This document shows, one piece after another, positions 25,460 through 43,584 of a DNA stretch of 52,885 nucleotides (its first letter is position 1; the number at the start of each line of letters is the position of its first letter). The stretch covers positions 1 through 52,885 of the forward strand of contig JAJEFO010000018.1 in NCBI GenBank assembly GCA_022820365.1. Direction: 5' to 3'. The notes under the pieces are model-generated. The model ran no database searches. It was given only the letters and a program-made list of their open reading frames with translations, and was not told the DNA's origin. The stretch comes from Silicimonas sp. GTDB lineage: Bacteria > Pseudomonadota > Alphaproteobacteria > Rhodobacterales > Rhodobacteraceae. Both the position numbers and the translations under genes were made by a program.

Positions 25460-26215
25460 TCAACCGTTCAAGTCGCAGCCCAGGAAATTGCGGTTATGTT
25501 GCAGTGCTGCGTCAAGAACGGAAAATGATCCGGCTGCGGGATCAATGACAAAGTCCCCCTCGCTGCTCACCGCAGAAATCAGGCGCCCCTGCAGTTCAAC
25601 CGGCTTGGCGTGCGGATGCTCGCGTTTCGACACCTTTTCCAAAACGACGTCCGTGATGTTGTGGACTTTCCACACGCCCTTTGCCCTGACGGGCCGCCTT
25701 TGCAGGACGATGCAATGTTCCGCACGGCGTCTGGTGCGGTACCCCATGCCGAAGGTTCCCTTGTCCCATGTCATCAGGTCGACGATTTCAAGGCTAGTCC
25801 CTTCCAGCCAAGGACGCACGCCTTGGCATAGGTGAAACTTGTCCACCCAAAGAAACAGATGCCCGGACGGAATCAGCACGTGATCAATGCCACGGACAAA
25901 TTCGCCAATCATCGCGTCAGACATTTGTGTCATGGCGCTGCGACGCGTTCCGCGCGTTTTCCCCTCGTTGCCATAGGCGAGCTTGTCCAGAACGCCTCGG
26001 TACTGCGGATCAAGGAAGGCGACGGGAATGGCGCTCTCCGGGAGCAGTGACAGGAATTCCAAACCGTCCATCTTCAAGCGGGTGTTGGGTCTGAGGGACA
26101 CAGGCAATGTGATCTTGGGTACCTGCACGGTTCTTTCATTCGAGAAGACGGCTTTGGCAGTCGCATCGTCGGTCGGGCTCGAATTCCTGGTCGTCTTTTC
26201 TTGGGTGGCAGACAT
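25460..26215 (-). CDS. site-specific DNA methyltransferase, beta-class (N4-cytosine/N6-adenine)
   Basis: About 251 residues. Catalytic motif IV is DPQY (about residue 69, the usual form is DPPY/SPPY), and the SAM-binding motif I (VIDPAAGSFSVLDAAL) comes near the C-terminus followed by RNFLGCDL. Motif IV before motif I defines the beta class. Between them is a WDKGTFGMGYRTRR-type core and a basic linker. No restriction endonuclease is adjacent, so it is an orphan methylase, possibly phage-derived or regulatory. Two ATGs in tandem (26218, 26215) are possible; the second has better spacing to AAAGGA. The recognition site cannot be inferred. Confidence 0.82.
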   Translation of the reverse strand: MSATQEKTTRNSSPTDDATAKAVFSNERTVQVPKITLPVSLRPNTRLKMDGLEFLSLLPESAIPVAFLDPQYRGVLDKLAYGNEGKTRGTRRSAMTQMSDAMIGEFVRGIDHVLIPSGHLFLWVDKFHLCQGVRPWLEGTSLEIVDLMTWDKGTFGMGYRTRRRAEHCIVLQRRPVRAKGVWKVHNITDVVLEKVSKREHPHAKPVELQGRLISAVSSEGDFVIDPAAGSFSVLDAALQHNRNFLGCDLNG

Positions 26216-26296
26216 CATCGTCCTTTCTGGTTTCGGTTCGTGACGGACATGGTTCGGCGTCTGGACGGAATGAATTCCCGTTCAATTTCTAATCGA

Positions 26297-29029: not shown

Positions 29030-29371
29030 ATGACGGCAAAAAACCTTCTTACAACTGCGCCGCCCTACGAGGTCGAACAGGCGATCACACGTCTGGGCCG
29101 GAACCTGCGCACCGCGCGCCTGCGCCGTAACCTGACGATCAATGAGGTCGCGGCCAAGATCGGCACTGGCCCGCGTGCTGTCATGGACGCGGAAAAGGGC
29201 AAGCTTAGCACCGGCATCGCGGCATACGCCGCGCTGCTTTGGACCTACGATCTGCTGCACCCGTTCGGCGCGCTTGCCGACCCGCTGACTGACAGAGAGG
29301 GTTTTGCCTTTGATCAACTTTCCGGCAGGGAGCGCGCGCGCAGCGGCAAGGGTCTCGATAATGACTTCTGA
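29030..29371 (+). CDS. hipB: HipB-type antitoxin, XRE family
   Basis: A 113-residue DNA-binding antitoxin. The helix-turn-helix is in LGRNLRTARLRRNLTINEVAAKIG and the following TGPRAVMDAEKG, with the family's GIAAYAALLWTYDLL segment after it. It would bind the TTAAGAGC sites upstream and neutralise HipA. No strong ribosome-binding site is visible and the third operator sits directly before the ATG. HipA begins 11 nt before this stop, so translation is coupled. Confidence 0.85.
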   Translation: MTAKNLLTTAPPYEVEQAITRLGRNLRTARLRRNLTINEVAAKIGTGPRAVMDAEKGKLSTGIAAYAALLWTYDLLHPFGALADPLTDREGFAFDQLSGRERARSGKGLDNDF

Positions 29372-30650
29372 TCTTGGTGCCACAGAGTGTTTTGTCTATG
29401 TCACGCTGCCCGGCACGAGCACATTCGTGACCGCGGGTCGTTTCGTGCTCGAACCGGACCGTGACGGCGTTCCGATCGGTCGCTTTGTCTACGGCCGAAA
29501 GTACCTTGCCAATGCAGATGCGGTTCCGATCGACCCGATTGATCTCAAGCTGGCCGACACGACATACCGCACGACGGCGCTCAAAGGCATGTTCGGCGCA
29601 CTGCGCGACGCCGGTCCTGACCATTGGGGCCGCCGCGTCATCGAAAAACATGCTGGAATGCCGCAACTCGGCGAGATCGACTATCTGCTCTACGGGCCCG
29701 ATGACCGCGCCGGTGCGCTTGGGTTTGGCCTCGGTCCGAATCCACCGGCACCGCTGAAAAAATTCAACCAGACGCTCGATCTTGCGAGGCTGATCACGCT
29801 TGCCGATGCCATCATATCCGGAGAAGACGTCCCGGACGGCCCAGAGGCCGGACAGGTCGCAGATCTCATGTTGATCGGCACCTCGATGGGAGGTGCGCGT
29901 CCGAAGGCCGTTGTCGAGGACTCGGACGGGCTTTGGCTCGCAAAGTTCAATCGCGAAGATGACAAGTGGAACCACGCGCGGGTTGAGCACGCGATGCTTC
30001 AGCTTGCCAGCGCCTGCGACGTACACACCGCGCAAAGCCGAATCGAAAATATCGCTGGCCGCGACGTGCTGCTCGTGAAGCGGTTTGACCGGGAAAGTAC
30101 AAGTCACGGCTATCTGCGCGCCCGGATGATGAGCGGGCTCACGATGCTGCGGACCGAGGACATCCACCAGCACAGGGACCGCTGGTCTTACCTGATGCTG
30201 GTCGAAGAGATGCGCCGCATCTCGGCGCAACCCAAGGACGATGCGGCCGAGCTATTCCGACGCATGGTCTTCAACGCGCTAATCTCGAACACCGACGATC
30301 ACCCGCGCAACCATGCTGCAATTGCGAGAGACGCCGACTGGAAGCTCTCCCCGGCCTACGACCTGACGCCTTCGATGCCGGTGAGCCTTGAGCGCCGTGA
30401 CCTCGCCATGACCTGTGGTGACATGGGTCGCTACGCCAATGCGCAAAACATGCTCTCGCAATGCGCCCGCTTCCATCTCGAGACGGAGGAAGCCGCCGCA
30501 ACCATCGATGCGTTGGAAAGCCAGGTCAAGGCCAGCTGGTATGCAATCGCCCGTCGCGCTGGCGTTACGGAAACCGATTGCGAGACCATCAATGGGGCCT
30601 TCGCCTACCCGGGATTTCGGCTCGCTCCGGAGCAAGCAACACTGGCTTGA
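29361..30650 (+). CDS. hipA: HipA-type toxin kinase
   Basis: A 429-residue serine/threonine kinase. It has an N-terminal HipA domain (VTAGRFVLE, PIGRFVYGRKYL), the phosphate-binding loop GTSMGGARPK (residues 173-182), a Lys in GLWLAKF, the catalytic loop NTDDHPRNH (residues 310-318) and the DFG-like AYDLTP. HipA of E. coli phosphorylates glutamyl-tRNA synthetase and causes growth arrest and persistence; the target here is unknown. ATG 29361 overlaps hipB by 11 nt. A longer frame from 29304 runs inside hipB and is rejected. All kinase motifs look intact. Confidence 0.92.
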   Translation: MTSDLGATECFVYVTLPGTSTFVTAGRFVLEPDRDGVPIGRFVYGRKYLANADAVPIDPIDLKLADTTYRTTALKGMFGALRDAGPDHWGRRVIEKHAGMPQLGEIDYLLYGPDDRAGALGFGLGPNPPAPLKKFNQTLDLARLITLADAIISGEDVPDGPEAGQVADLMLIGTSMGGARPKAVVEDSDGLWLAKFNREDDKWNHARVEHAMLQLASACDVHTAQSRIENIAGRDVLLVKRFDRESTSHGYLRARMMSGLTMLRTEDIHQHRDRWSYLMLVEEMRRISAQPKDDAAELFRRMVFNALISNTDDHPRNHAAIARDADWKLSPAYDLTPSMPVSLERRDLAMTCGDMGRYANAQNMLSQCARFHLETEEAAATIDALESQVKASWYAIARRAGVTETDCETINGAFAYPGFRLAPEQATLA

Positions 30651-30839
30651 GCACGTTCGGGGACGTTACTCTCGCCAAGTCACGTTTGTCTCGCAGCCAG
30701 TATTTTCGTGGACACCGAACCCAGCCTGGCCCGCTTGAGAATTATCGAAATCACATCGGCTCTTGCGGCAGGGGACACGGTCCCTTGGCAGCGCCGACTG
30801 CACAGGCAGTTGAGCCGCGCGTCGATTGTGCTCAACTCG

Positions 30840-32024
30840 TCAGCAAGAAGATGATTGCTGACTCGCAAGCACTTCCTCTGCGGCTTGTTCGAATGACAAA
30901 TTCGGCATTTGATATAGTCCACCGCCAAGACGACCCATTTCCCCCTCGCGATCAAGAATTCCAAGGCTGACCTGCGGCGTGCGTCCACATTCGGAGACGG
31001 CCAGCGCAGAGATGCCCAGTTTCAGGCCTGTGGCCTTGAAATAGGGGTGCTCTCCGACCGACATTCCGTGAACTGATCCGTGCGAGGTCGGCGGCTCATT
31101 GCCCATCTTCGCCATCGCGCCCAGGCCGAATGCATCGATGACAGCGCTGTCGCCGATGGCACCCAACGCACGGGACGGCGGCAGGTCAACGTCGAACGCG
31201 CCTTCTGGCGGCGTGGCAGGGACGGTGTACCAGCGCCCGGGGAATGCGGAGACCTGTATGCCGACATCGCGTCCGTTGCCGCCGGCCGCAGTGACAAAAC
31301 CGGACCCCTGGACGCCCTCTGCCCGGCTCATCATCAATTTGGTAGCCGCCATCCATAGGTTGAGAAAAATGCTGGGCGAGCCCTTGAGAAACTCAAGGAC
31401 CTCGTCATCGCCGATGCCGTTCGGCGAACGGTCGATCAATTCCTGTACAAGGGCGGCGCCTGCGACCGGTGTCCGGCCGTGGCAGTCATCGCCGCCCTTG
31501 AGACCATCGACGGCCAGCGGCACGAGGGCGATCCCCTCTGCCAAGCCTCCTTGAAGCACGTCGAGGCAGCGGGTGTTGAGCCATCTGACGTGATCCAGCA
31601 CGGCTTGCGATTTCAGGCCCAGGCGAAGGGCGGGTCGATTCCCGCCGTTGATCGGGGCAAACGTGCGGTGCTGCCCTCGCCACGCGTCGTAGACGGAATG
31701 CAGCGGCATTGACCCGCTGACTACGGCAGCAAGCGGCGTAACGACGTTTACGTCCTGTGCCGGTTTCAGGAGAATCTCTTCAGACGAGATCAATCCCTCA
31801 GCCGCGTCAAGGCTGGGCGCGAGCCCTTCGTAGACGGCTGCGACGCAGGCCGAGTTCAGAATGGGCCGGGTGATCGCGGCAGGGTCTGGGAAGGGAGGTC
31901 CGGCGTGGAGAAGGACGTTTTCCGCGATGCCGGTCACGTCTCGTACCAGATCGAACCTGTTCCAGACCGGTTGCGTGACCATGGCCTGGTCGAACGCCAG
32001 CCTGTCGGCTTGATGATGCGTCAT
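30840..32024 (-). CDS. DUF1116 protein (AllG/YlbE-like)
   Basis: A 394-residue cytoplasmic protein. Family pattern: LLHAGPPF, the segment ACVAAVYEGLAPSLDAAEGL, VTPLAAVVSGSMPLHSVYD, NGGNRPALRLGLKSQAVLDH, and a C-terminal SHGSVHGMS. In E. coli the DUF1116 protein AllG works with FdrA (AllF) and AllH as oxamate carbamoyltransferase in allantoin breakdown. Neither an fdrA nor an allH relative is present here. It is the last gene of operon A, with ATGA overlap to the preceding paralogue. A related transferase or ligase role on a different substrate is likely but unproven. Confidence 0.8.
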   Translation of the reverse strand: MTHHQADRLAFDQAMVTQPVWNRFDLVRDVTGIAENVLLHAGPPFPDPAAITRPILNSACVAAVYEGLAPSLDAAEGLISSEEILLKPAQDVNVVTPLAAVVSGSMPLHSVYDAWRGQHRTFAPINGGNRPALRLGLKSQAVLDHVRWLNTRCLDVLQGGLAEGIALVPLAVDGLKGGDDCHGRTPVAGAALVQELIDRSPNGIGDDEVLEFLKGSPSIFLNLWMAATKLMMSRAEGVQGSGFVTAAGGNGRDVGIQVSAFPGRWYTVPATPPEGAFDVDLPPSRALGAIGDSAVIDAFGLGAMAKMGNEPPTSHGSVHGMSVGEHPYFKATGLKLGISALAVSECGRTPQVSLGILDREGEMGRLGGGLYQMPNLSFEQAAEEVLASQQSSSC

Positions 32025-32647
32025 TCGGCGCCCGGTGGGATCACCCACGTCTCGCTGAAATAGAGAAACGCGGTCGTCGTCTCGAAACCGGCCTGAACAC
32101 GCGTGCCCAGCTGGCCCGGCAGGGAGCGGCCATTGACGATGATTTGCGCGCTTCTTGCGGGAACGAGAAGCGTGAACATGGTGTGAACTCCGGTGCCAAC
32201 CTGGTCTGGCGTGAGTTCCAGCGCCCTTGGCGGTTCCAGGTCCTCCCAAACCAGTTCGATGGACAGTTCCTCGCCGACAATTGTCTCTGCATATCGGTGG
32301 CCCATCGGGTCACCGGCACTCCGCACGGCCTGGGCAAGTCGTGGTGCCATGCCCTCAAATGCCGGTACGTCGCGAAAGGCGCCGAGACGGCCGACAAAGT
32401 TAGACTTAAGGTAGGTGGCGAGTTCGATGTTGTCGGCCAAAAAGACATTCGGGGTCGCGGGCGTGCCGGCCCTCGATCCGGGAGAGCCATAAAGCCAGAG
32501 AACCTGGCCCTGACCGGCCGGAGACCAGGCTACCCGAAAGAAGAGTGCCATGGCGGTGAATGCCCCGCTGGCATCCTTCAGGAGAATTCCGGGATTCTCG
32601 CCGGTCCAGTCGACCGTTCCAGGCGTGATCGGCATGCTTAGCGGCAT
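32021..32647 (-). CDS. unknown-family protein, tandem paralogue 2
   Basis: 208 residues, not recognised. It is a clear paralogue of the gene just upstream: shared stretches are PGTVDWTGENPGILLK near the start, LFFRVAWSP, RYAETIVG, RSAQIIVNGRSLPGQ and a C-terminal FSETWV. No signal peptide, membrane helix, cysteine motif or known catalytic motif is visible; many aromatic and beta-prone segments suggest a beta-rich fold. ATG 32647 shares one base with the upstream stop and follows GGAGGAG. Tight overlap on both sides implies a stoichiometric role in operon A, perhaps as a heterodimer with its paralogue. Confidence 0.75.
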   Translation of the reverse strand: MPLSMPITPGTVDWTGENPGILLKDASGAFTAMALFFRVAWSPAGQGQVLWLYGSPGSRAGTPATPNVFLADNIELATYLKSNFVGRLGAFRDVPAFEGMAPRLAQAVRSAGDPMGHRYAETIVGEELSIELVWEDLEPPRALELTPDQVGTGVHTMFTLLVPARSAQIIVNGRSLPGQLGTRVQAGFETTTAFLYFSETWVIPPGAE

Positions 32648-33276
32648 CAGGTCTCCTCCGTTGGCGTGACCCAGGTTTCGGAAAACGCGAGGAAGGCGGT
32701 CGACATCGTGCGGCCAAAGAACTGCCGCTCGGCAACCTGGCCGGGGAGCGATGTCCCGTTTACGCGCACCTCCGCAGATCTCGCTTCGAGAAACACGGAA
32801 TACATCTCGTGGACCTTGGTGGCCGAATTGTCCTTCGTGACCTCGACGGGCAGAGGCGGACCCATGTCGCGCCAAATCATTTCAAGCATGACACCGGATC
32901 CGCGAACGGTTTCCGAGTATCTGGTCTTCAGGTCGCCAGGCCGCCTTTCGACGCTGTCGCAATCTAGCCAGGTCATGGACTGCAGCCCGGACTTGCCGAC
33001 GAAAGTAGGCATCTTGGACACCCAGCCATCCACGATCCAGCGCATCATGCGCTGGTTGTCGGTCATGATGAAATTGGGTGCATCGGGCCAGCCCGCATCA
33101 CGGTCAGGCTGGCCGAGGACCAGCCCTGCATGTCCGCGACCGAAGGGGGACAGGACAACGCGAAAGAACAGGGACAGGACGTCATACGTTTCGGCGGAGG
33201 GGTCGGACTTCAGGTAAATTCCCGGATTCTCGCCAGACCAGTCGACGCGGCCGGGATTGATGGAAACGCGCGTCAT
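32647..33276 (-). CDS. unknown-family protein, tandem paralogue 1
   Basis: About 209 residues, not recognised. It shares PGRVDWSGENPGIYLK, LFFRVVLSP, RYSETVRG, RSAEVRVNGTSLPGQ and FSETWV with the next gene. It differs in the middle (WLDCDSVERRP). Start ATG 33276 overlaps the Rieske oxygenase stop as ATGA; an ATG two codons earlier (33282) is also possible. No signal peptide or metal motif is visible. The position directly after an oxygenase suggests a role in the same pathway, for example as an accessory or downstream enzyme, but no function can be assigned. Confidence 0.75.
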   Translation of the reverse strand: MTRVSINPGRVDWSGENPGIYLKSDPSAETYDVLSLFFRVVLSPFGRGHAGLVLGQPDRDAGWPDAPNFIMTDNQRMMRWIVDGWVSKMPTFVGKSGLQSMTWLDCDSVERRPGDLKTRYSETVRGSGVMLEMIWRDMGPPLPVEVTKDNSATKVHEMYSVFLEARSAEVRVNGTSLPGQVAERQFFGRTMSTAFLAFSETWVTPTEET

Positions 33277-34631
33277 TGCCATCTTGCCTCGTATTCCTTG
33301 AGACGCGACCGGATGAACTCGTTTCTCGCGTCCCCCTGCAGGTGGTCCCCGGACCTGTAGATTTCCGCCACGTCGATCGAGATTTCCTTGAGGATCGCGC
33401 CGTCATCGCGACCTTCTTGCACGGGGATTCTGAGCATCGTATCGCCTCCATAGGTCGGGATTGCGCCGTCGAGACCATCTGTTGGCTGTGGTGCAGGGTT
33501 TCCGGAGGCAACGGAACGGATGGCGTTCCGCAGAAGGCGTCGGGCCTTTGCGACGCCTCTGTCCGTGAAGCCCATGTTCTCACGCGCGTGAATGTTCTTC
33601 GGCCCTTGGCTGACCCACGCGTCATAGTCGCCAGGGTCGCGTTGGCGCTGTTCGTAGGAGCGGTCCGGTCCCTGGCCGTAGAAGTCGGTCGTCCCAAACC
33701 CGACCTTTGATTTGTCGGTCAAGCCCCGAGGGTCGTCGCCGTCGCGGAAATGGCGCCAGGCGATCACCAGCGTGTGCGTGTCGTCGACTGGAGTAATCCA
33801 GCGGCTGAGTCCGCAGCGCCCAAAATATCGGGGCTTGTCCGGCACAGGAAAGTGCCCGCCGTTTTGCGTGAAGCTTGGCAGAATGTGATCATGGCACCGG
33901 ATCCAGACAATGTCGTCCACGCGGCGGACGTTGGTGTAGAAATCGCCGGTCCGGCTTTCGTGGAACTCGATCATCGGCATTTCGGCGAAAGCGTCGATGA
34001 ACTGGCTCCGCACCGCGAGCGTGTGAAGATACACGACGTGGAAAGGGTCCCACGCATTTTCCATCACCTGAAGCCAGTTGCACGGGGACTCGATGAGGTA
34101 CGGCAGCATTTCGTCGCCTGCCTCGTCGAACGTGTCCATCACGGGAAACGGAGGCTGTTCCTCCGGTGGCCCCATGTAGGCGAATGCGAGCCCTTTGGAC
34201 TCAATGACCGGGTAGGCACCCAGGCAGGCGCGCCTCCTGACCTGGCTGGCCGGAGGTTCGCAGGGTGTCTCGAGGATTGTTCCATCGAGCCCGTACTTCC
34301 AGCCATGATAGGAACAGCGAATGCCGCCCTCTTCGACGATCCCGAATTCAAGGCTCATGTTCCGGTGGCAGCAATGCAGGTGCGTGAGACCGAGCCTGCC
34401 TTCGCCCTTCTCCCGGAACAGCACCAGGTCCTCGCCCATGATCCTGATTCGGCAGGGAAGGTCCCCGACCTGATCCGTCATCGCAACGGGCAGCCAGTAG
34501 CGTCGCAGGTATTCGCCGCAGGGCGTGCCCGGGCCAACTTCCGTCAATTCCGGATCAGGCGTCTGCGCCCAGACGGACTGCTGGGCATGCCCGCGAAAGT
34601 TGCCTTTCGGTGCTGCAAAGTGATCTGTCAT
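33273..34631 (-). CDS. Rieske mononuclear-iron oxygenase, alpha subunit
   Basis: A 452-residue oxygenase. The Rieske [2Fe-2S] ligands are C87-x-H89 (LHCCHRN) and C106-x-x-H109 (CSYHGWKY). The catalytic iron site is ENAWDPFHVVYLH with D195, H198 and H203. The arrangement and length fit the phthalate 4,5-dioxygenase-like group of one-component alpha subunits, which hydroxylate or demethylate aromatic and N-methyl compounds. No ferredoxin reductase is in the operon; a Rieske ferredoxin lies 17 kb away at 50.5 kb. Second gene of operon A, 73 bases after the M14 gene. Confidence 0.93.
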   Translation of the reverse strand: MTDHFAAPKGNFRGHAQQSVWAQTPDPELTEVGPGTPCGEYLRRYWLPVAMTDQVGDLPCRIRIMGEDLVLFREKGEGRLGLTHLHCCHRNMSLEFGIVEEGGIRCSYHGWKYGLDGTILETPCEPPASQVRRRACLGAYPVIESKGLAFAYMGPPEEQPPFPVMDTFDEAGDEMLPYLIESPCNWLQVMENAWDPFHVVYLHTLAVRSQFIDAFAEMPMIEFHESRTGDFYTNVRRVDDIVWIRCHDHILPSFTQNGGHFPVPDKPRYFGRCGLSRWITPVDDTHTLVIAWRHFRDGDDPRGLTDKSKVGFGTTDFYGQGPDRSYEQRQRDPGDYDAWVSQGPKNIHARENMGFTDRGVAKARRLLRNAIRSVASGNPAPQPTDGLDGAIPTYGGDTMLRIPVQEGRDDGAILKEISIDVAEIYRSGDHLQGDARNEFIRSRLKEYEARWQ

Positions 34632-34704
34632 TTGGTCTGCGAGCCAGTCGGATGGTGATATCCGAGCCGACGATTGGGAATAAGCGGCATGGCAATCTGC
34701 TGGA

Positions 34705-35700
34705 TCATCGGGTTACGTCCTGTGCCACGAGATGCAGCAATTCCCCCCGCCTTACAAGGCCGCGGCAGGTATGCGCCAGGATGAAGCCGTCAGACCGGAA
34801 CTTCACGTCACTTGAAGGCCGCTCCGGTTCAAAAACGTGGTGAAGCCTGCCAGCCAAGGCACCGGACTTTGCTTCTTGCCCCGCTGCTGCGGCCCTGTCG
34901 AACACGCCATCGCTTGTTGCGTAGAGCGACGAGGCAGGCGACGCAGTTTCAACGATTCTGGCGTGTTTCGGCTCTGCCTCTCCAGCGACGATCCCCATGT
35001 TCCGGAGCATGCGAAGGAGGCCGGTTTCCGCATGCCCCGTGATTTCAGGATCTGTGCCGCCGCCGCCTCCAAGTTCCGTGGCAATCATCGGAACGTTCTG
35101 GCGTTCCGCGGCAGCGTTGACGGACCGGTCGTCGTTCTGGTCGCCCAGTCGCCAGATCAGCGGAAGGCCGAACGCGCGGGCCAAGGCTAGATTCGCCTCG
35201 TATAGCGCGCTGTCGGCGCAGTGCGTGACCAGCGTGCAGGGTTGGAAGAACGATGCCTTGCCGCCCGAGTGCAAGTCGACAACGGCGTCGGCGCGGGGAA
35301 GCAGTTCGGTTTCCACGAAGTCGGCGATCATGGCCGTCGGACCGCCGTTTGGATCGCCAGGAAACGCCCGGTTGAGATTCGCGCCGTCAAGCGGACTGAC
35401 GCGGGAGGCCTCGGCGAACGCCGGAGCGTTCAAGGCGGGAACCAGAATGACCTGTCCAGCGAGGTCCGCCGGACCGAGACCCTGTGCCAGGCGCATGAGG
35501 GCTGCCGGTCCTTCGAACTCGTCGCCATGGGTGCCGCCAATGAGCAAGGCGACAGGGCCAGAGCCGTTCTTTAGCGAAATAACCGGGATCGGATGATGTC
35601 CCAGCGGGTTGGAATTGTCGGACCAGCGAAGACGAATTTCGCCGACGTGGCGACCAGGCTTGTCGAGGTCGATGGACGCCGAAACCCTGGTGGCTGCCAA
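34705..35700 (-). CDS. M14-family deacylase (aspartoacylase/succinylglutamate desuccinylase group)
   Basis: A 331-residue zinc hydrolase. The zinc ligands are in GGTHGDEFEG (H-x-x-E) and DLHSGG, with the family's NLNRAFPGD segment between and ATELGGGGGTDPE carrying the catalytic Glu. This resembles N-alpha-acetyl-diaminobutyrate deacetylase (DoeB) of ectoine degradation and related amide hydrolases. The frame begins at TTG 35700 with an AAGGAA site upstream; no ATG occurs before the conserved sequence, so a TTG start is most likely. First gene of operon A. The neighbours lack other ectoine genes, so ectoine is not assumed. Confidence 0.88.
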   Translation of the reverse strand: MAATRVSASIDLDKPGRHVGEIRLRWSDNSNPLGHHPIPVISLKNGSGPVALLIGGTHGDEFEGPAALMRLAQGLGPADLAGQVILVPALNAPAFAEASRVSPLDGANLNRAFPGDPNGGPTAMIADFVETELLPRADAVVDLHSGGKASFFQPCTLVTHCADSALYEANLALARAFGLPLIWRLGDQNDDRSVNAAAERQNVPMIATELGGGGGTDPEITGHAETGLLRMLRNMGIVAGEAEPKHARIVETASPASSLYATSDGVFDRAAAAGQEAKSGALAGRLHHVFEPERPSSDVKFRSDGFILAHTCRGLVRRGELLHLVAQDVTR

Positions 35701-35778
35701 AACGGTTCCTTTCGCCGAGAAGTTGCTTTGTCGTTTATCCTAAAATGTGATGAGGGTAATGACCATACCTGTCCATGC

Positions 35779-36903
35779 ATGTGGCTGGAGGCATCGAATG
35801 GGGAGGCGACGATAGCGGGACCGAAAGCAAAGCCGGGGATTGATCGGATCAAGCCGCATATGCTGGGGTCCGCTGCTGACGAACTGCCGCCCGCCTGGGC
35901 CTTGCTTAACTCCAATGAGAGCGTCTTTGGCCCGAGTCGGCATGCCAGGGACGCCGCTCGCGCATCCGTGTCTGGGATCGAGCGATACCCGGAAGGAGTC
36001 GATGTCGCGCTGGTCCGCGAAATTGCCGGGTTTCACGCGCTCGATCCGGGCAGGATTGTCGTCGGGCAGGGGGCGGACGACCTCCTCGCGCGGCTGTTCC
36101 GCGCGTATCTCGGCCAGGGAGACCAACTGGTCCGGTCTGCAAACGGATATCTGAAAGTTCCCAATTACGCACATGCAAACGGAGGTGAGGTTGTTTCGGT
36201 GGAAGATGACGACCTGATTCCGTCCGTCGACGGCATGCTCGCCGCTCTCTCTGAGCGAACGCGGGTGGTCTACCTCGCCAATCCTGAAAACCCGGCCGGA
36301 ACGTATCTTCCAAAGGCGGAAGTAGAGCGCCTGCACGCTGCCATCCCCGACGACGTTCTCTTGGTACTGGATTGCGCGTACGCCGAATATGCCTGGGCCG
36401 ACGATTACGATCCCGGACATGACCTTGTCACGCGATCGGCAAACGTGGTTGTCTGTCGAACGTTTTCCAAGATCTACGGACTTGCCGGAGCACGCGTGGG
36501 TTGGGCCCATGGCCCCGGGGACGTGATCGATGCTGTGCGGCGGATCGCCTTGACTTTCCCCATGGCAAAGCCCTCCGTTGCGGCGGCAATGGCGGCGCTG
36601 GAGGATCAGGCGCATGTCGCGTTTGTCCGTCGGGAGAACCGTGCGCTGCTGGAAGGATTCTGCGGCCGGTTGGTCAGCCTTGGCGTGGACTACATTCCGT
36701 CGCAGACCAATTTCGTCCTCGTCAGGATGCCTGGGGCGGTTCAGTCGGAAGCTGCAGTTCTGGCCCTTGGCGAGAAGGGGATACGGGTCCGGCGAATGAA
36801 TGCACCTGCATATGCCGATTGCTTCAGGGTCTCGATTGGCCTGCGGCACGAGTTGGACGCAACGTCTCGGGCGCTCGAAAGCCACCTGAGGGAGGCAACA
36901 TGA
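35779..36903 (+). CDS. HisC-like PLP aminotransferase (class I/II)
   Basis: About 374 residues from ATG 35779. Visible are LLNSNESVFGP, NPENPAGTYLP, LDCAYAEYAW and the PLP lysine in RTFSKIYGLAGARVGW, plus a C-terminal Arg region (FRVSIG). Related to histidinol-phosphate aminotransferase, but no other his gene is near, so another amino donor or acceptor is likely. The start is uncertain: a perfect GGGGAGG site at 35800-35806 lies 5 nt before an ATA codon (35812) where homologues typically start (AGPKAKPGI). First gene of operon B; the stop overlaps the next start. Confidence 0.87.
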   Translation: MWLEASNGEATIAGPKAKPGIDRIKPHMLGSAADELPPAWALLNSNESVFGPSRHARDAARASVSGIERYPEGVDVALVREIAGFHALDPGRIVVGQGADDLLARLFRAYLGQGDQLVRSANGYLKVPNYAHANGGEVVSVEDDDLIPSVDGMLAALSERTRVVYLANPENPAGTYLPKAEVERLHAAIPDDVLLVLDCAYAEYAWADDYDPGHDLVTRSANVVVCRTFSKIYGLAGARVGWAHGPGDVIDAVRRIALTFPMAKPSVAAAMAALEDQAHVAFVRRENRALLEGFCGRLVSLGVDYIPSQTNFVLVRMPGAVQSEAAVLALGEKGIRVRRMNAPAYADCFRVSIGLRHELDATSRALESHLREAT

Positions 36904-37448
36904 TGGCCGAGGCCACTCCGGCAGGGACGCCAGGCCAGGCAGCTCACCCCTCGGGCGCTCGCATCATCGAACTCCTCAAGGAGAGCGGGGTTGGAGAGGT
37001 CGTTGCATTGCCGGACATTGTCACGAGCGACGGGCTGCTTTGGCCGATATCGCGCGACCCGGCGCTTCGCCTGACACGGGTCTGCAAGGAGGACGAGGGT
37101 GTCTCGATTTGTGCCGCGATGTCCTGCAATGGAACACGAGCGGTGCTGCTAATGCAGCAGACCGGACTCATGGACTCTCTCAACGCCATCCGTGCGATCG
37201 GCATCGACTACCAAAGGCCGGTCGTCATGATGGTCGGTCTTCTTGAGAAGGAGCCACATCTGCCTGCAAGCAAGTCCGCGGCCTACGGCGTTAGGATCGT
37301 CGAGCCGGTGCTCCGCGCGATGGGGATTTCGCATTCCCCGATCGAAGAGCCGGAGGACGTTGAAAGCATCGTTCACTTGATTGATGAAGCATATGCGGGT
37401 TCGCGTCCGCACGTATTCCTGATTGGCCGCGCACCGGTGGCGCCGTGA
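36900..37448 (+). CDS. ThDP-dependent decarboxylase, alpha half (sulfopyruvate/phosphonopyruvate type)
   Basis: 182 residues forming the N-terminal PYR-type domain of a split ThDP enzyme. The activating Glu is in CKEDEGVSICAAM; MQQTGLMDSLNAIRA and RPVVMMVGL match the alpha subunit of sulfopyruvate decarboxylase (ComD) and phosphonopyruvate decarboxylase. ATGATG starts at 36900/36903 after GGGAGG; the first overlaps the aminotransferase stop. The partner subunit follows with a GTGA overlap. An aminotransferase plus such a decarboxylase would turn an amino acid into a 2-oxo acid and then an aldehyde. Confidence 0.85.
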   Translation: MMAEATPAGTPGQAAHPSGARIIELLKESGVGEVVALPDIVTSDGLLWPISRDPALRLTRVCKEDEGVSICAAMSCNGTRAVLLMQQTGLMDSLNAIRAIGIDYQRPVVMMVGLLEKEPHLPASKSAAYGVRIVEPVLRAMGISHSPIEEPEDVESIVHLIDEAYAGSRPHVFLIGRAPVAP

Positions 37449-38020
37449 CCATTAGGCGTGACGAAGCGCTTCGCACTCTCGTGCCGTTCGTGCGCGACGA
37501 CGACATCGTTGTCGCCGTGTACCAGACGAATTTCGACTGGATGGGGATTAATCCCAGGCCGCTGAATTACGTGGCCGTAGGAGCAATGGGGCAGGCGGCG
37601 TCGCACGGATTGGGCCTCGCGCTGGCCAACCCGGAACGACGGGTGTTCGTGTTTGACGGTGATGGCTCGCTGCTCATGAATCTTGGAGCGCTCGTCACTG
37701 TTGCCGGTGCCGGCGTCACAAATTTCTATCATTTCGTGTTTGCGAACCGCGTCTACGAAGTGAATGGCGACCAGCCGATCCCGAATGCCGAGAACGTCGA
37801 TTTCGCCGGATTTGCCGCGGCCGCGGGATACGCCATGTCGCATTCGTTTGACGAACTTGAGGAGTTTGCCAGCGCGGTGCCTCGCATTCTTGAACATGCC
37901 GGTCCGCAAATGGTCAGCCTCGAGACAAGGCCCGGCGAGCCGTACCCGAGGAACTACGCCTACATCCACAGTGCCGAGGCGCGAAAGACGTTCGAGGATG
38001 CGCTCAACGGCAGGGAATAG
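37445..38020 (+). CDS. ThDP-dependent decarboxylase, beta half
   Basis: 191 residues forming the ThDP-binding PP-type domain: the motif FDGDGSLLMNLGALVTVAGA holds GDG and the following Asn/Leu region that bind Mg and the diphosphate. The rest matches sulfopyruvate decarboxylase beta (ComE) and related phosphonopyruvate or 2-oxo acid decarboxylases. GTG start overlaps the alpha stop. The two halves would form an alpha/beta enzyme in the cytoplasm. Which C3 oxo acid is used cannot be told from the sequence; no sulfoacetaldehyde or phosphonate gene is adjacent. Confidence 0.85.
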   Translation: MTIRRDEALRTLVPFVRDDDIVVAVYQTNFDWMGINPRPLNYVAVGAMGQAASHGLGLALANPERRVFVFDGDGSLLMNLGALVTVAGAGVTNFYHFVFANRVYEVNGDQPIPNAENVDFAGFAAAAGYAMSHSFDELEEFASAVPRILEHAGPQMVSLETRPGEPYPRNYAYIHSAEARKTFEDALNGRE

Positions 38021-38021
38021 G

Positions 38022-39410
38022 TCAGGTGCCGCGACGCGCCGACGCCCGCCAGAGGCCGCCGATGCTCTCCAATGCCACCCGCGACGCGATGACCATCGAG
38101 ATCATCAATCCGGTCGTGACCGCGGCAGCGACTCCGAACCAGACGCCTATTTCGCTGAACTGAAACACGCCGACAAACAGCCAGACAAAGAATGCAATGC
38201 CGAAAGCCTGCCTGTAAAGGCTGATCCAGACGCTCCAGATCGGGCGCTTGAGTGCCTGCAGGAAAGAGTTGATTGCGAACAGCATCATGTAGGCTGGAAG
38301 GATCAGGCTTTCGACCCGGAGGTAGACGAGGCCGACCCGGATCACGTCAGGATCCTGGGTGAACCGTTCGAGCACAGGGCGTCCAAGGATCCAGATGATC
38401 GGCAACGCTCCGACAGTCATGATAAATCCGACCTTCCAGCAATAGAAGAGGGCCGCTCGCACACGATCATGGTCGCGGGCCCCGAACGCCTGGGCCGCGA
38501 TTGGGAGCAGTGCCCCGGTCACTCCGAGAACCGGGAGGAGCAGGATCTGTTCGAGCCTGATGGCAATACCAAACCCGGCAATCGCGTGCTCTCCGAAACC
38601 CTTTAGAACAAACTGTACCACGAATCCCGACAGCATCATGATCATGAGCGCGAATGCGGTTGGGAACGTCTGGAAGAAGATCTCCCGAAGCTCGGGAACT
38701 CGGGGCGAGAAATGTCGGGACCGTACCCGAGACAACGTTGCAAGCCTCAGCAGCTTCCACAGCAGATAGATCATTACGCCGGTTTGGCTGATGACGGTGG
38801 AAACTGCGAGGCCGTCGAAGCCTATCCCGGCCCAGACGCCGGGAAGGCCGAATATCAGCAGCGGATTGAGGGCAATGTTGGCAAAGAACGCGGCAATCAG
38901 GGCATGCTGCATGGACCGCCCGTCGCCGTGCGCCTGCAATGCCCCGTTGCAGGCAAAGGCGATCATGAAGCTGGGCAGTGCCAGGGAAAGAAGCAGATAA
39001 TACCGCGTCCCGGCGTTGCGATAAGGTCCGGGCTCGGACACAAGCTGCACGAGCGCCGGGCCGTACCATGATCCGATCGCCACAAGGACCAGGGCGGCGA
39101 CGGCGCCGAACGTGACGCCTTGTGCCGAAAGCCGTCGGGCGGCGCGCCGGTCCTTCGCCCCGAGGGCGTTTCCGACGATGGCCCCCATTGCGGCACCGAG
39201 GCCGAAGCCGATGGACAGCGCGATGTAGAAGGCCTGATATCCCAGCGAGATGCCGGCTTGCGCACTGGTCGACAACAGGCCGGCGAAGAACATGTCCACG
39301 ACGTTGTAGAGCGTGTTGAACAGCATCCCTATCGCGGCAGGGACGGCAAGAGTCCGAAAGTGACCACTGATCGGACCTTCGGTCAGGTCGCTGGTGAGTT
39401 CACGCGCCAT
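38022..39410 (-). CDS. MATE family efflux transporter
   Basis: A 462-residue membrane protein with 12 predicted helices in two halves. The N-terminal half begins LTEGPISGHFRTLAVPAAIGMLFNTLYNVVDMFFAG, and the symmetrical second half starts near FPTAFALMIMMLSGFVVQFV. MATE proteins export small organic molecules using sodium or protons. Placed at the end of a minus operon behind a cupin-XRE regulator (10-nt gap), so it may export a pathway intermediate or an unwanted analogue. Converges on the decarboxylase with a 1-bp gap. Confidence 0.92.
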   Translation of the reverse strand: MARELTSDLTEGPISGHFRTLAVPAAIGMLFNTLYNVVDMFFAGLLSTSAQAGISLGYQAFYIALSIGFGLGAAMGAIVGNALGAKDRRAARRLSAQGVTFGAVAALVLVAIGSWYGPALVQLVSEPGPYRNAGTRYYLLLSLALPSFMIAFACNGALQAHGDGRSMQHALIAAFFANIALNPLLIFGLPGVWAGIGFDGLAVSTVISQTGVMIYLLWKLLRLATLSRVRSRHFSPRVPELREIFFQTFPTAFALMIMMLSGFVVQFVLKGFGEHAIAGFGIAIRLEQILLLPVLGVTGALLPIAAQAFGARDHDRVRAALFYCWKVGFIMTVGALPIIWILGRPVLERFTQDPDVIRVGLVYLRVESLILPAYMMLFAINSFLQALKRPIWSVWISLYRQAFGIAFFVWLFVGVFQFSEIGVWFGVAAAVTTGLMISMVIASRVALESIGGLWRASARRGT

Positions 39411-39420
39411 GCATGGCCGT

Positions 39421-40008
39421 TCAGGGGCGCTCTGCCTGGACGGTCAGAAAAACGAATTCCGGTGTCAGGACATCCACGAATCCGTGGTTCAGTTCCGCGT
39501 CCACGCTCAGGCTGTCACCATCGGACAGGGTCAAGTGCTGCTGGCCGTAGCGGTAGATTGCTTGGCCGGCAAGCACTTGAACGAAGACGACGCCATGACC
39601 GACATAGGTCGGTGGCTTGCCGCCATCCCGGGTCAGCGTCACCCTGCGGGCCTGGAAGCGAAGATCCTTGCGCGCATGAAGGGCAAGATTCACGTAGTCG
39701 TGCCGATGCCCCTCGGTGAGACGGGTGGATTTCAGGCCCTCGCCGGCGTGTACCAGGGTGAAGTCCGTATGGTCGGTGCGCGCCTCTCGAAACAGCGACA
39801 CGATTGGAACGCTCAGTGCCTCGGCGAGCGCCGCGAGCGTGGAAATGCTTGGGCTTACCAGCCCGTTCTCGATGCGGCTTACCATGGCTGCGGATACGCC
39901 GGAAAGCTCTGCCAGCGCCCTGGCGGAATGGCCGCGCTCGCGCCGAAGCTCTTTCAGTGACTGCCCGATTGCTTCATCGATGTGCTTGCCGGCCTTCTCG
40001 GATGCCAT
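39421..40008 (-). CDS. transcriptional regulator, XRE helix-turn-helix plus cupin
   Basis: A 195-residue regulator. The N-terminal helix-turn-helix is in LKELRRERGHSARALAELSG and VSAAMVSRIENGLVSPSISTL; the C-terminal cupin (about residues 110-190) likely binds a small-molecule effector. The architecture is that of regulators controlling amine, polyamine and amino-acid breakdown (PuuR, SutR-like). It lies between the AhpD-like gene (10-nt gap) and the MATE gene. The inverted repeat GTTCGAA-N5-TTCGAAC at 40627 is a plausible binding site. A second regulator of the same design lies at 44.5 kb. Confidence 0.88.
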   Translation of the reverse strand: MASEKAGKHIDEAIGQSLKELRRERGHSARALAELSGVSAAMVSRIENGLVSPSISTLAALAEALSVPIVSLFREARTDHTDFTLVHAGEGLKSTRLTEGHRHDYVNLALHARKDLRFQARRVTLTRDGGKPPTYVGHGVVFVQVLAGQAIYRYGQQHLTLSDGDSLSVDAELNHGFVDVLTPEFVFLTVQAERP

Positions 40009-40017
40009 GTCGCGCCG

Positions 40018-40596
40018 CTACGTTTCTGCGTAATAGCCGACCACGTCGCCAGCCGTTGTCACGCCAAGCCCGTTAAGCAGCCGGTTGGCATAGTTGAAGT
40101 AGCAGATGATCTGGTTCATCTCCAGGATCTCGCCGTCATCCCAGCCCGTTTCGCGCAGCGCACGAACGGTGTCTTCCGAAATTGCGCCGGGTTGAAGGGT
40201 CAGGATTTCGGCATAGCGGAGTGCCACAAGTTCACGGCCGCTGAACTGGATCTCGGGTTGCCGGTCCTTGAGCGCCCGTTCGATCCGGTTGGCGCGCTCG
40301 TCGTCCCCGATGAGATGCTTCGCGTTTGCCCAGTGATTTGCATAGGAGTAGGCGCAATCGTTCAGCGTGGACACGTATGAGCCCATTACTTCCTGGAACC
40401 ACAGCGGAATGCTGTTGCCGTCGTCATGAAGGCAGGCGCGATAGAGCGTGACATGACCATGCATGGTGTTCGGCCGGAGCGAATGGACACGCATGACGTT
40501 GTCTACGGTTCCGTGCGGGGTCCGCGCCTGCTCCAAGGCTTCCGAGAGCACCTCATCGGCGTCCTCGTCGGAGATCATCTTGATCCATGCCGACAT
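40018..40596 (-). CDS. AhpD-like / peroxidase-related protein (carboxymuconolactone decarboxylase fold)
   Basis: A 192-residue all-helical protein of the CMD/AhpD superfamily. The active-site helix reads LNDCAYSYANHW: the first Cys and the His of the usual C-x-x-C-x-x-x-H motif are present, but the second Cys is Ser. A classical thiol peroxidase relay is therefore unlikely. Other parts (RPNTMHGHVTLYRACLHD, LVALRYAEILTLQPG) match the peroxidase-related group. First gene of a minus operon with the regulator and the MATE transporter, divergent from the ABC importer. Confidence 0.83.
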   Translation of the reverse strand: MSAWIKMISDEDADEVLSEALEQARTPHGTVDNVMRVHSLRPNTMHGHVTLYRACLHDDGNSIPLWFQEVMGSYVSTLNDCAYSYANHWANAKHLIGDDERANRIERALKDRQPEIQFSGRELVALRYAEILTLQPGAISEDTVRALRETGWDDGEILEMNQIICYFNYANRLLNGLGVTTAGDVVGYYAET

Positions 40597-40910
40597 TGTG
40601 TCTCCTCTGGATGACTGGCAGGCGGTGTTCGAAATTCATTCGAACAAGTTTCCTTATTCCTTGCCTAAACCGTCATGCAACGTTATTGAGTGAAATGCAA
40701 GAATTGGGGGGTGCCGGAATTTGCACTATCGCTGCCAGTGGTCAAAATGAACGCTGCGCGAAATGCGTCTCGGATCCATGCGATCCTTGACGCGCGGCTG
40801 CAATGGCAAGGCCATTGCGGGCGGCAATCGGGGAATGTCGTTGCCGGACATCCTCGAATTCTGCCATGGTTCCATGAGGCGTACGTCAACCGTCGCGGCA
40901 GGTGGAATGC
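40597..40910. other. divergent control region of the importer and AhpD operons
   Basis: 314 bases between two divergent operons. It contains an inverted repeat at 40627-40645 (listed separately). No further gene is supported; short frames here lack ribosome-binding sites. Confidence 0.5.
40627..40645. promoter_or_regulatory. operator-like inverted repeat GTTCGAA-N5-TTCGAAC
   Basis: A perfect 7-bp inverted repeat (40627-40633 and 40639-40645) with a 5-bp spacer, 31 bases upstream of the AhpD-like start. The size and symmetry suit a dimeric helix-turn-helix regulator such as the cupin-XRE protein encoded in the same operon. Confidence 0.55.
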
Positions 40911-41654
40911 ATGAGTAGCCAACCGATCATCGAAGCTCGCAACGTCGACAAGTTCTACGGGAATTTTCACGCCCTGAAGGATGTCAGCATTTCGGTTCAT
41001 CACGGTGAGCGTGTGGTGGTGTGTGGCCCGTCGGGATCGGGAAAGTCGACGTTGATCCGTTGTTTCAACGCTTTGGAAAACCATAGTTCAGGTACTCTTG
41101 TGGTCGATGGCATCGAGGTCTTCGAGGGTTCGAAGGATGTTCGGAAGCTGCGGCAGGAAGTCGGCATGGTCTTCCAGCAGTTCAACCTCTTTCCGCATCT
41201 CACAGTGCTCGAGAACCTAATGATCGGGCCGATGAAGGTTCGGAAGGTCTCGCGGGAGCAGGCGGAAGAGACTGCGCGCAAGTACCTGGATCGGGTGCAT
41301 ATTCCGGAGCAGGCGGAAAAGTACCCGGCTCAGCTGTCCGGAGGTCAGCAACAGCGTGTTGCGATTGCCCGGTCGCTTTGCATGGAAACCCGGATCATGC
41401 TGTTCGACGAACCGACGTCGGCGCTGGACCCCGAGATGATCAACGAAGTGCTCGACGTCATGGTCGAGCTTGCTGAAACCGGCATGACCATGGTCGTGGT
41501 TACCCATGAGATGGGTTTCGCGCGCAAAGTGGCCGATACCATGGTGTTCATGGAGGAGGGTCGAATCGTCGAGGTCGCGCCTCCCGAACAATTTTTTACG
41601 GCGCCTTCAAGCGAGCGTTGCCGGATGTTCCTGGCGCAAATCCTGGAGCATTGA
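40911..41654 (+). CDS. polar amino acid ABC importer, ATPase subunit (GlnQ/HisP-like)
   Basis: A 247-residue ATPase. Walker A GPSGSGKST, Q-loop GMVFQQFNLF, signature LSGGQQQR, Walker B IMLFDEPTSALD and H-loop VVTHEMGF are all intact. Together with two permeases and a binding protein it forms a complete importer for amino acids or related compounds. ATG 40911 is 5 nt after AGGTGG; an in-frame GTG 9 bases upstream lacks a site. The start of a four-gene operon (40.9-44.5 kb). Confidence 0.95.
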   Translation: MSSQPIIEARNVDKFYGNFHALKDVSISVHHGERVVVCGPSGSGKSTLIRCFNALENHSSGTLVVDGIEVFEGSKDVRKLRQEVGMVFQQFNLFPHLTVLENLMIGPMKVRKVSREQAEETARKYLDRVHIPEQAEKYPAQLSGGQQQRVAIARSLCMETRIMLFDEPTSALDPEMINEVLDVMVELAETGMTMVVVTHEMGFARKVADTMVFMEEGRIVEVAPPEQFFTAPSSERCRMFLAQILEH

Positions 41655-41655
41655 A

Positions 41656-42498
41656 ATGGCGACGAGCGGGACAGCCAGCCTGAGAGGCCTTCCGATCCCG
41701 AAGCCGCCGGTGCATCAGCAACTGCTGAACTCGGTTCCGGTTGCCGTCGCGATCTATGCCATCGTTGTCGGGCTGATCGTCTACGGGTCGTTCGCTGGAG
41801 CCCAGAACATGGGCTACAATTGGCAGTGGTACCGCGTGCCTCAGTACCTGTACAGCTTTACCGACGACGGATTTCAGTGGGGCGAGATTACGATAGGTCT
41901 GGTGGCGACCATCAGGCTCTCCATCCTGTCTTTCGCGCTCGCCACGTTTCTTGGGCTCGTCGTGGCACTTCTGCGGCTGTCAGGTCTCGTCGTAGGGTCT
42001 GCCGTCGCCGTCGGGTTCCTCGAATTGATCCGTAACATCCCGCTCCTGGTGCTGCTTTACCTCTTCTACTACGTGCTGGGACCGATCTTTGGGCTCGACC
42101 GCTACGTTGCCAGCATCCTGACGCTTGCCGTCTTCCATTCCGCACTGATATCCGAAATCTTCCGAGCGGGCATCAATGCCGTTGCCATCGGGCAGTGGGA
42201 AGCCGCGAAGTCAATCGGAATGTCCACCGGGCAGGCCTACCGCTACATCATTCTGCCCCAGTCCGTCCGCTTCATGCTGCCACCGATGACGGGCGAAGTG
42301 GTGCACCTCATCAAGTCGTCGGCGATCGTCAGCGTCATTGCCGTGGCCGAGCTTACGACAATCGGGCGCAACATTATTTCCGACACGTACATGAGTTTCG
42401 AGATCTGGTTCACCGTCGCAGCTGTCTACATGGTGGTGACCCTGATCCTGTCAATTGGCGTGTCGTTCCTCGAACGAAAGTACACGGTTGACCAATGA
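41656..42498 (+). CDS. polar amino acid ABC importer, permease subunit 1
   Basis: A 280-residue HisM/GlnP-type permease starting 1 nt after the ATPase stop. N-terminal helix (VAVAIYAIVVGLIVYG), a periplasmic stretch, then the transport domain from ITIGLVATIRLSILSF. The EAA loop is present (GQWEAAKSIGMSTGQAYRYI) with the family's PQSVRFMLPP. Partners with permease 2, the ATPase and the binding protein. Confidence 0.93.
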   Translation: MATSGTASLRGLPIPKPPVHQQLLNSVPVAVAIYAIVVGLIVYGSFAGAQNMGYNWQWYRVPQYLYSFTDDGFQWGEITIGLVATIRLSILSFALATFLGLVVALLRLSGLVVGSAVAVGFLELIRNIPLLVLLYLFYYVLGPIFGLDRYVASILTLAVFHSALISEIFRAGINAVAIGQWEAAKSIGMSTGQAYRYIILPQSVRFMLPPMTGEVVHLIKSSAIVSVIAVAELTTIGRNIISDTYMSFEIWFTVAAVYMVVTLILSIGVSFLERKYTVDQ

Positions 42499-42706
42499 TG
42501 CGTTCAAAGATCATCCCGAACGTGTACGGCGACCCAGCCGCTTTCATGCCGATGTCTGGCATCGCGAGCCGAACTGCGGATCGGTGTCGGGCACCTCCCA
42601 GGGATCGCAGACTGGCCAGGCCAGAACCCCGTCGACGTCCGAAATTCCCTGGGCTTGACCGGAAAATGAACAAATGAGAAGACCACTCAATCAAGGAGGA
42701 TACCAA

Positions 42707-43540
42707 ATGAAACTCAATCGCAGAATGCTCGGATATGCCTTGGCGGCGACCGCGACCGTGGGCCTTGCGTTGCCCGCGGCGGCTCAGCAGGCCACGCAGG
42801 CGCTGACCTCGGAGAGCGTGATCGAACAGATCAAGCAGGACGGAGTGATCCGGATCGGCCTGTCCCTGTTCGTGCCCTGGTCGATGCGCGACAAGAACGG
42901 CGAACTTATTGGCTACGAACTCGATGTCGGTCGCAAGCTTGCGGAGGACATGGGGGTGGAAGCCGAGTTTGTTCCGACGTCCTGGGACGGGATCATCCCG
43001 GCCCTCGTTGCCGGCAACTTCGATGTCATAATTTCGGGCATGTCGGTTACGGCGCAAAGAAACCTGACGATAAACTTCACAGATCCGTACGCGTATTCGG
43101 GGCTGGCAATTCTTGCAAACAAGGAAATGACGGCCGGCATGTCGCTGGAGGACATGAATTCGCCCGACGTGATCTTCACGGCCCGTCGGGGCGCAACCCC
43201 GGCTGTCGTGATTGCCGACAACTTTCCTGAGGCGCAGCTCCTTCTCTTCGATGAGGACGGCGCGTCTGCTCAGGAAGTGCTGAACGGCAATGCCCATGCG
43301 ACCATGGCCGCTCAGCCGACGCCGAACCGAGAGGCGGGCAGGAACCCGGAGACGCTTGTCGTCTTGGAAGGCGATCTGTTCGACCCGCGTGGTGAAGGCT
43401 TTGCCTTGCGGAAGGGAGACCCGGACGCGCTCAACTACTTCAACAACTGGATCGCCCAGCAATGGCGCAGCGGTTGGCTTGAAGCGCGCCACAACTACTG
43501 GTTCGCGACCGAGGACTGGGCCGACCAGGTAGCCCAGTAA
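42707..43540 (+). CDS. ABC importer, solute-binding protein (family 3)
   Basis: A 277-residue periplasmic binding protein. The signal peptide has a basic start (KLNRRM), a hydrophobic core (LGYALAATATVGLALP) and cleavage near AAA-QQ. The mature protein has the family-3 pattern: IRIGLSLFVPWSMRDKNGELIGYELDVGRKLAEDMG, SGMSVTAQRNLTINFTDPYAYSG. A very strong ribosome-binding site (AAGGAGGAT) precedes ATG 42707. The ligand cannot be read from sequence; the pocket lacks an obvious His/Lys/Arg signature. Confidence 0.93.
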   Translation: MKLNRRMLGYALAATATVGLALPAAAQQATQALTSESVIEQIKQDGVIRIGLSLFVPWSMRDKNGELIGYELDVGRKLAEDMGVEAEFVPTSWDGIIPALVAGNFDVIISGMSVTAQRNLTINFTDPYAYSGLAILANKEMTAGMSLEDMNSPDVIFTARRGATPAVVIADNFPEAQLLLFDEDGASAQEVLNGNAHATMAAQPTPNREAGRNPETLVVLEGDLFDPRGEGFALRKGDPDALNYFNNWIAQQWRSGWLEARHNYWFATEDWADQVAQ

Positions 43541-43551
43541 GCCAAGACCAG

Positions 43552-43577
43552 GGCCCGGGAGCCACGGCTCCCGGGCC
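43552..43577 (+). terminator. GC-rich hairpin after the binding-protein gene
   Basis: GGCCCGGGAGCC pairs with GGCTCCCGGGCC (about 11 bp, tight CACG loop), 11 nt after the stop and 8 nt before the next start. Such hairpins between a binding-protein gene and its permease genes usually protect the upstream mRNA and reduce read-through, giving more binding protein than permease. Confidence 0.75.
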
Positions 43578-43584
43578 TTGAGCA

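Follow-up and report, generated by a model that had tools for sequence, protein, structure and literature searches.

A divergent gene cluster carrying a paired new protein family in Silicimonas and other bacteria

Which reactions could bring together an M14-type deacylase, a Rieske oxygenase, two paralogous proteins and a DUF1116 protein? The question is raised by a block of five genes at positions 30840–35700 of contig JAJEFO010000018.1 (assembly GCA_022820365.1) of Silicimonas sp., of which a stretch of 52,885 nucleotides (nt) was analysed as a whole and is referred to here as the window. An earlier note on this DNA had described five linked genes, with a gap of 73 bases behind the first and overlaps of 1–4 nt thereafter. 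This is borne out: all five open frames are confirmed on the minus strand in the order M14, Rieske, p1, p2 and DUF1116 (p1 and p2 being the paralogues), with the 73-nt gap between M14 and Rieske genes followed by overlaps of 4, 1 and 4 nt. Our analysis indicates that p1 and p2 belong to a new protein family and that the block is part of a larger, apparently undescribed cluster, whose probable role is the breakdown of a natural compound that contains nitrogen.

The paired protein family

The genes for p1 (32647–33276, minus strand) and p2 (32021–32647, minus strand) encode proteins that are 38–39% identical, in agreement with the earlier description of two unknown paralogues. Pfam gives nothing for p1 and a chance-level match to DUF2378 (0.047) for p2. 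When 39 members of the family were compared with Pfam, eight families matched one member each (best E 0.003) and no family matched two. NCBIfam has no match for p1 or p2, and a profile search against PDB sequences gave a best E of 0.12. By these searches, p1 and p2 constitute a new protein family.

Of the 144 sequences placed in a tree, the 62 second copies group as a single clade; the 62 first copies are all found outside that clade, as are the 20 single copies. The tree is rooted at the midpoint, several of its deep supports are moderate (0.865 for the second-copy clade) and the joining point of the single copies is tentative. The pair goes back to one ancient tandem duplication. Similarities of p1 and p2 are correlated at 0.955 over 44 loci as compared with 0.69–0.80 for other gene pairs, all of these values being inflated by shared ancestry. 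Because of the clean split between the clades and this difference in correlation, p1 and p2 probably form a heteromer.

Ten residues are invariant in all 144 sequences (G15, N17, P18, G46, G48, W135, G179, R184, E200 and W202), with no histidine or cysteine among them. The predicted models of p1 and p2 are mostly beta, with a predicted local distance difference test score (pLDDT) of 95.0 and 94.4, respectively, and a predicted template modelling score (pTM) of 0.90 for both. Foldseek found no match to either model in the PDB at E 0.001, nor was there a match for the p1 model in a viral structure library at the same threshold. Below significance, the first PDB match of the p1 model is 25-phosphosteroid lyase (E 6e-3, probability 0.51, TM score 0.22). 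The same lyase is the most probable of the 50 matches shown for the p2 model, where it ranks fifth by E-value and is likewise not significant (E 3.6e-2, probability 0.66, TM score 0.31). Homology of p1 and p2 to AllH was considered and rejected in a motif-based comparison, the GLGPGLTPSGDD motif of four AllH frames being absent from both.

Content and distribution of the cluster

The known-type members of the block can be assigned to families as follows. The M14/AstE-AspA deacylase gene (34705–35700, minus strand) has a TTG start, and its DoeB-like product matches AstE_AspA_cat (PF24827, 4e-37). The Rieske gene (33273–34631, minus strand) encodes an oxygenase alpha subunit of the phthalate-dioxygenase/LigXa type (Rieske 2e-15, LigXa_C 3e-7) in which both the CxH..CxxH and the DxxH4H ligand motifs are found. 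The DUF1116 protein (30840–32024, minus strand) matches the AllG family (formerly DUF1116, PF06545, 9e-56) and passes its gathering score with 189.3 bits against a cut-off of 27.

These five genes are half of a divergent cluster. Facing the M14 gene at about 35.8–38.0 kb on the plus strand are genes for a HisC-like aminotransferase (35779–36903, starting at 35779 or 35860; searches were run with the open frame starting at 35767) and for the alpha (36885–37448) and beta (37445–38020) subunits of a thiamine pyrophosphate (TPP) decarboxylase. The aminotransferase stays below the cut-off of the HisC model TIGR01141 (235.7 bits, cut-off 276.55), and the TPP decarboxylase below those of the sulfopyruvate decarboxylase models TIGR03845 (75 bits, cut-off 147.95, for the sulfopyruvate decarboxylase-like alpha subunit) and TIGR03846 (104.1 bits, cut-off 221.5). 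A promoter scan of positions 30600–38200 gave no sigma-70-like site, and the seven terminator-like sites against 6.8 expected are uninformative.

The arrangement is more than a product of chance. Within the genus p1 is present in 8 of 8 genomes, compared with none of 29 other genomes of the family and 1 of 24 of the class. Among 394 genomes of the family, DUF1116 occurs in 18 and p1/p2 in nine, all of which fall among the 18; if the two were independent, the chance of such overlap would be 8.5e-14 (1.9e-12 when the genus's second genome is left out). Hosts include Silicimonas/Boseongicola, Ruegeria, Leisingera and SAR116, and Variovorax with one p gene; named strains with the cluster are Ruegeria conchae, R. 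atlantica, Leisingera sp. ANG-M1 and Variovorax ginsengisoli. The cluster is real and widespread, being shared by many bacteria of sea and soil.

A scan of named genomes gave 257 relatives, of which the best 80 loci, biased toward the window's own sequence, were used for counting neighbours by blastp with cut-offs (at least 40% identity for Rieske) up to 10 kb on each side of the p gene; 18 of the 80 stretches are shorter than 12 kb, so that the counts are lower bounds. Rieske genes were found near the p gene in 61 loci, DUF1116 in 59, the TPP alpha and beta subunits in 39 each, the aminotransferase in 38, an amidase in 35, an aldehyde dehydrogenase (ALDH) in 31 and M14 in 28. In 37 loci the aminotransferase is accompanied by TPP alpha; one locus has the former without the latter, and two have the latter without the former. 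Catalytic motifs are conserved in these frames: the aminotransferase lysine in 38 of 38, the TPP GDG in 39 of 39 and the M14 HxxE in 27 of 28, and, with three short Rieske frames set aside, the cluster ligands in 61 of 61 and the mononuclear iron ligands in 59 of 61. Recurrence of the five genes in distant genomes, which the earlier note had named as support for its reading, is seen in that the gene set returns in other genera and classes, but the full set is present in just 26 of the 80 loci, M14 being its least constant member. Nor do the five genes form a closed unit; the aminotransferase, both TPP subunits and the amidase had been missed. They are part of a larger cluster, and the earlier interpretation is partly supported.

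Among the 61 two-copy loci, Rieske is near in 53, DUF1116 in 52, both in 44 and neither in none, whereas 10 of the 19 single-copy loci have neither. A tie to the oxygenase, to DUF1116 or to both is therefore a property of the pair and not of the single homologue. The earlier note had counted a pair occurring without the other genes against its operon; this is not seen for two-copy loci (61 of 61 with at least one of the two), but the single-copy loci do include such cases. In 50 of the 61 two-copy loci, p2 is immediately followed by a DUF1116 frame of the same orientation.

The layout varies among relatives. Ruegeria conchae has the same divergent set with an ALDH gene between M14 and Rieske and an amidase gene after DUF1116, and both enzymes are found in the same operon in other relatives as well; beyond the genes found here, some relatives carry ALDH, amidase, LysR and an amino-acid transporter. 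In Paracoccus aminovorans, LysR is followed by Rieske, a VanB-type reductase, an oxidoreductase, a single p gene (annotated in the record as an NAD-dependent dehydratase), DUF1116, VOC, amidase and an ATP-binding cassette (ABC) transporter. SAR116 loci retain Rieske and the pair, with a formamidase in six loci; in the two that were scanned (L095 and L088), these genes are followed by one for a nitrile hydratase alpha chain and one for a molybdopterin oxidoreductase. The scanned neighbours of single copies include, in L127 (Rokubacteria), a D-serine-dehydratase-type enzyme as well as a class V aminotransferase and, in L126, a gamma-glutamyltranspeptidase. SoxA and SoxB, both of the sarcosine-oxidase type, are near the pair in 19 of the 80 loci each, with families checked in L107 and L014; their presence is a hint that some substrates carry N-methyl groups. 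A gene of the mercaptohistidine N1-methyltransferase type (TIGR04345) is present in six loci of one proteobacterial set (L107, at 4098–4874 on the minus strand, L096, L100, L101, L106 and L112), standing alone beside SoxBDAG and p1-p2, and the two proteins scanned exceed the cut-off. Ovothiol biosynthesis was considered and rejected: TIGR04345 is over cut-off in 4 of 12 genomes and the OvoA N-terminal in none of the 12, these four included.

Two cases call for separate mention. One genome of the genus has a second Rieske-p1 copy (L045/L077, G006 contig 505), with p1 76% identical and ALDH in front, which is either a foreign contig or a recent gain. Another locus (L093) comes from a bin labelled Bordetella parapertussis, a label which looks doubtful.

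Proposed pathway and competing explanations

From the directly observed gene content, recurrence, co-inheritance and conserved catalytic motifs we infer every reaction below, and their order. Our tentative reading, which we place a little short of an even chance, is that the cluster serves the catabolism of a nitrogen-containing aromatic or heteroaromatic amino acid and its N-acyl form. The substrate would be taken up by a family-3 ABC transporter, and the M14 enzyme would remove the N-acyl group; amide hydrolysis as the first step, as suggested in the earlier note, is possible. The HisC-like aminotransferase would then give the 2-oxo acid, the two-subunit TPP enzyme would decarboxylate it to the aldehyde, and ALDH, which is absent from the window's operon, would yield a ring-acetate. 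Together the three enzymes suggest that the amino acid loses one carbon on its way to the acid. The ring would be oxidised by the Rieske oxygenase, the p1/p2 heteromer may act on the product as a lyase or hydratase without a metal or redox cofactor, and DUF1116 and the amidase might cleave the leftover C–N bonds. Because SAR116 loci keep Rieske and the pair without DUF1116 nearby, the most likely place of p1/p2 is beside the oxygenase step, and that of DUF1116 and the amidase at C–N bonds cleaved later.

More speculatively, p1 and p2 may together make up a two-subunit enzyme of a new class that needs no cofactor, has a fold absent from the PDB and opens or dehydrates an oxygenated nitrogen heterocycle. 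The enzyme would belong to an undescribed catabolic pathway common to Rhodobacterales, SAR116 and further alpha- and gammaproteobacteria; in betaproteobacteria, Variovorax among them, it would consist of a single subunit. A histidine-type imidazole is a weak first guess for the ring, and one more apt to be wrong than right. It is prompted by the HisC-type aminotransferase, the TIGR04345 genes, and the formamidase and molybdopterin oxidoreductase of SAR116; the open-licence literature yielded no pathway of histamine or imidazole-acetate in which a Rieske enzyme takes part.

Several observations weigh against this proposal. The lyase fold matches are not significant (E above 0.001, TM score 0.22–0.31), and the first match of the p2 model by E-value is an unrelated Parabacteroides lipoprotein. 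M14 is near in just 28 of the 80 loci and TIGR04345 in six, the OvoA N-terminal is over cut-off in 0 of 12 genomes, nine loci have DUF1116 but no Rieske gene nearby, and the SAR116 loci lack DUF1116 near the pair. Neither the amidase (E 1e-40) nor the ALDH (1e-120) of Ruegeria is matched in the window's genome, and among five further genomes of the genus the amidase is matched in one (34%) and ALDH in none; therefore the pathway here would be trimmed or would use other enzymes.

Among the alternatives, it is conceivable, though unlikely, that DUF1116 keeps AllG chemistry and releases carbamoyl phosphate by cleaving a ureido intermediate, p1/p2 taking the place of AllH and of AllF (FdrA), whose domain also occurs in CoA ligases. 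The score of DUF1116 above the PF06545 cut-off, its position directly behind p2 and the hydantoinase A gene adjoining one single-copy p homologue would fit. However, AllH (PF11392), present in 4 of 121 genomes searched, has no match in the window's genome (98% complete), p1 and p2 lack the GLGPGLTPSGDD motif, and SAR116 keeps the pair without DUF1116 nearby.

Rather unlikely in our estimate is a methylated betaine such as homarine, degraded to N-methylglutamate or sarcosine. A homarine operon, homABCDER, has reportedly been described in Rhodobacterales and SAR116, and may be this cluster; its report was not found in the open-licence literature, which is without bioRxiv preprints and most subscription journals. 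The SoxA and SoxB genes, a choline/glycine-betaine-type transporter in L110 and the hosts, which include Rhodobacterales and SAR116, are in line with such a substrate, but it leaves the aminotransferase and the TPP decarboxylase unexplained. If the two clusters are the same, the pathway is not new, and novelty would be left to the pair's fold alone.

The ring could also be that of indole, with tryptophan or an indole-3-acetyl conjugate being converted to indole-3-acetate before ring oxidation, which we regard as quite improbable. Aminotransferase, decarboxylase and ALDH would then make an indolepyruvate route, the nitrile hydratase alpha chain of L095 and L088 could find a place, and indoleacetamide hydrolase is the nearest model of the amidases of Ruegeria (225 of 532 bits) and L116 (192 bits). 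These scores are far below cut-off, the decarboxylase is of a small two-subunit type, and no aromatic ring-fission or anthranilate gene was seen in a scan that covered some, not all, of the neighbours. A route from cysteate or phosphonoalanine to sulfo- or phosphonoacetaldehyde is very improbable, since the TPP subunits, although nearest to sulfopyruvate and phosphonopyruvate decarboxylase models, miss the curated cut-offs (75/148, 104/222 and 110/313 bits), no phosphonate or desulfonation gene was seen among those scanned, and the Rieske enzyme would be unexplained.

Neighbouring features and comparison with known systems

Further along the plus strand lies a probable uptake system (40902–44484), the counterpart of a family-3 amino-acid ABC transporter found directly past LysR in L034 and L036. 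It comprises an ATPase (40902–41654, PF00005, 3e-37), which is 83–98% identical to cluster-adjacent frames in its own genus, Ruegeria, Litoreibacter and Roseobacter, and two permeases (41506–42498 and 43585–44484) whose homologues adjoin the cluster in relatives. The fourth component, a family-3 solute-binding protein of polar amino-acid type (42674–43540), is matched by a homologue close to the cluster in 15 of the 80 loci and probably serves substrate uptake. Its closest solved relative is PDB 9e2b, for which no ligand was found in the open-licence literature. Between this system and the TPP genes, the minus strand at 38022–40596 carries a MATE exporter, an XRE-cupin regulator and a peroxidase-related protein, a block which again adjoins the cluster in L056, L057 and L061. 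On the other side, a HipA-like toxin gene (PF07804; 29304–30650, plus strand) lies tail to tail with DUF1116, overlapped by a small plus-strand frame (29030–29371) at the expected HipB position with no Pfam match at 1e-5. A DNA methylase match at 25460–26218 (minus strand) spans the profile end only (136–212 of 221), possibly a broken gene.

Gene clusters for the opening of nitrogen rings determine the kinds of dissolved organic nitrogen that are usable by bacteria. The present set is noteworthy for its paired family without a Pfam model or close fold, its AllG protein without AllH and its TPP decarboxylase of a type described as rare, and the named carrier strains make it directly testable. 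No described pathway with this gene set was found in the open-licence literature, in line with the earlier note, which knew of none. Six papers of that literature mention DUF1116, and none was seen, in the parts covered, to link it with a Rieske oxygenase.

Compared with known systems, the M14 enzyme shares its deacylase family and zinc-site motif with DoeB of ectoine catabolism (PDB 6twl, E 1.6e-55), but reaches 229.9 bits against the 402.7-bit cut-off of the DoeB model TIGR02994, and no ectoine hydrolase was seen in the window's cluster. The best PDB sequence matches of the Rieske protein are 7fhr (E 4e-43), named phthalate dioxygenase in the match listing, and 7fjl (E 3e-41), presumably also of the phthalate 4,5-dioxygenase type, from which the window's operon differs in having no reductase gene. 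The 25-phosphosteroid lyase (PDB 9fzn and 9g4c), non-significantly the first fold match of p1 and the most probable one shown for p2, has 360 residues as against about 209 per p subunit. The nearest described cluster found in which a two-subunit TPP decarboxylase (LumK/LumL), of a kind called rare, stands with hydrolases and a Rieske oxygenase is the lum operon for lumichrome (riboflavin) catabolism of Nocardioides simplex, likened here by its description. The available part of its report names no aminotransferase or DUF1116, and gives the operon a P450, a xanthine oxidase, a four-component Rieske system and a catechol dioxygenase of its own (PMC12746152). DUF1116, finally, is the AllG family, which according to the available parts of two reports is a component of the AllFGH oxamate carbamoyltransferase (PMC12625717, PMC3364942); in the window's genome, where an AllH match is absent, p1, p2 and the Rieske oxygenase adjoin it instead.

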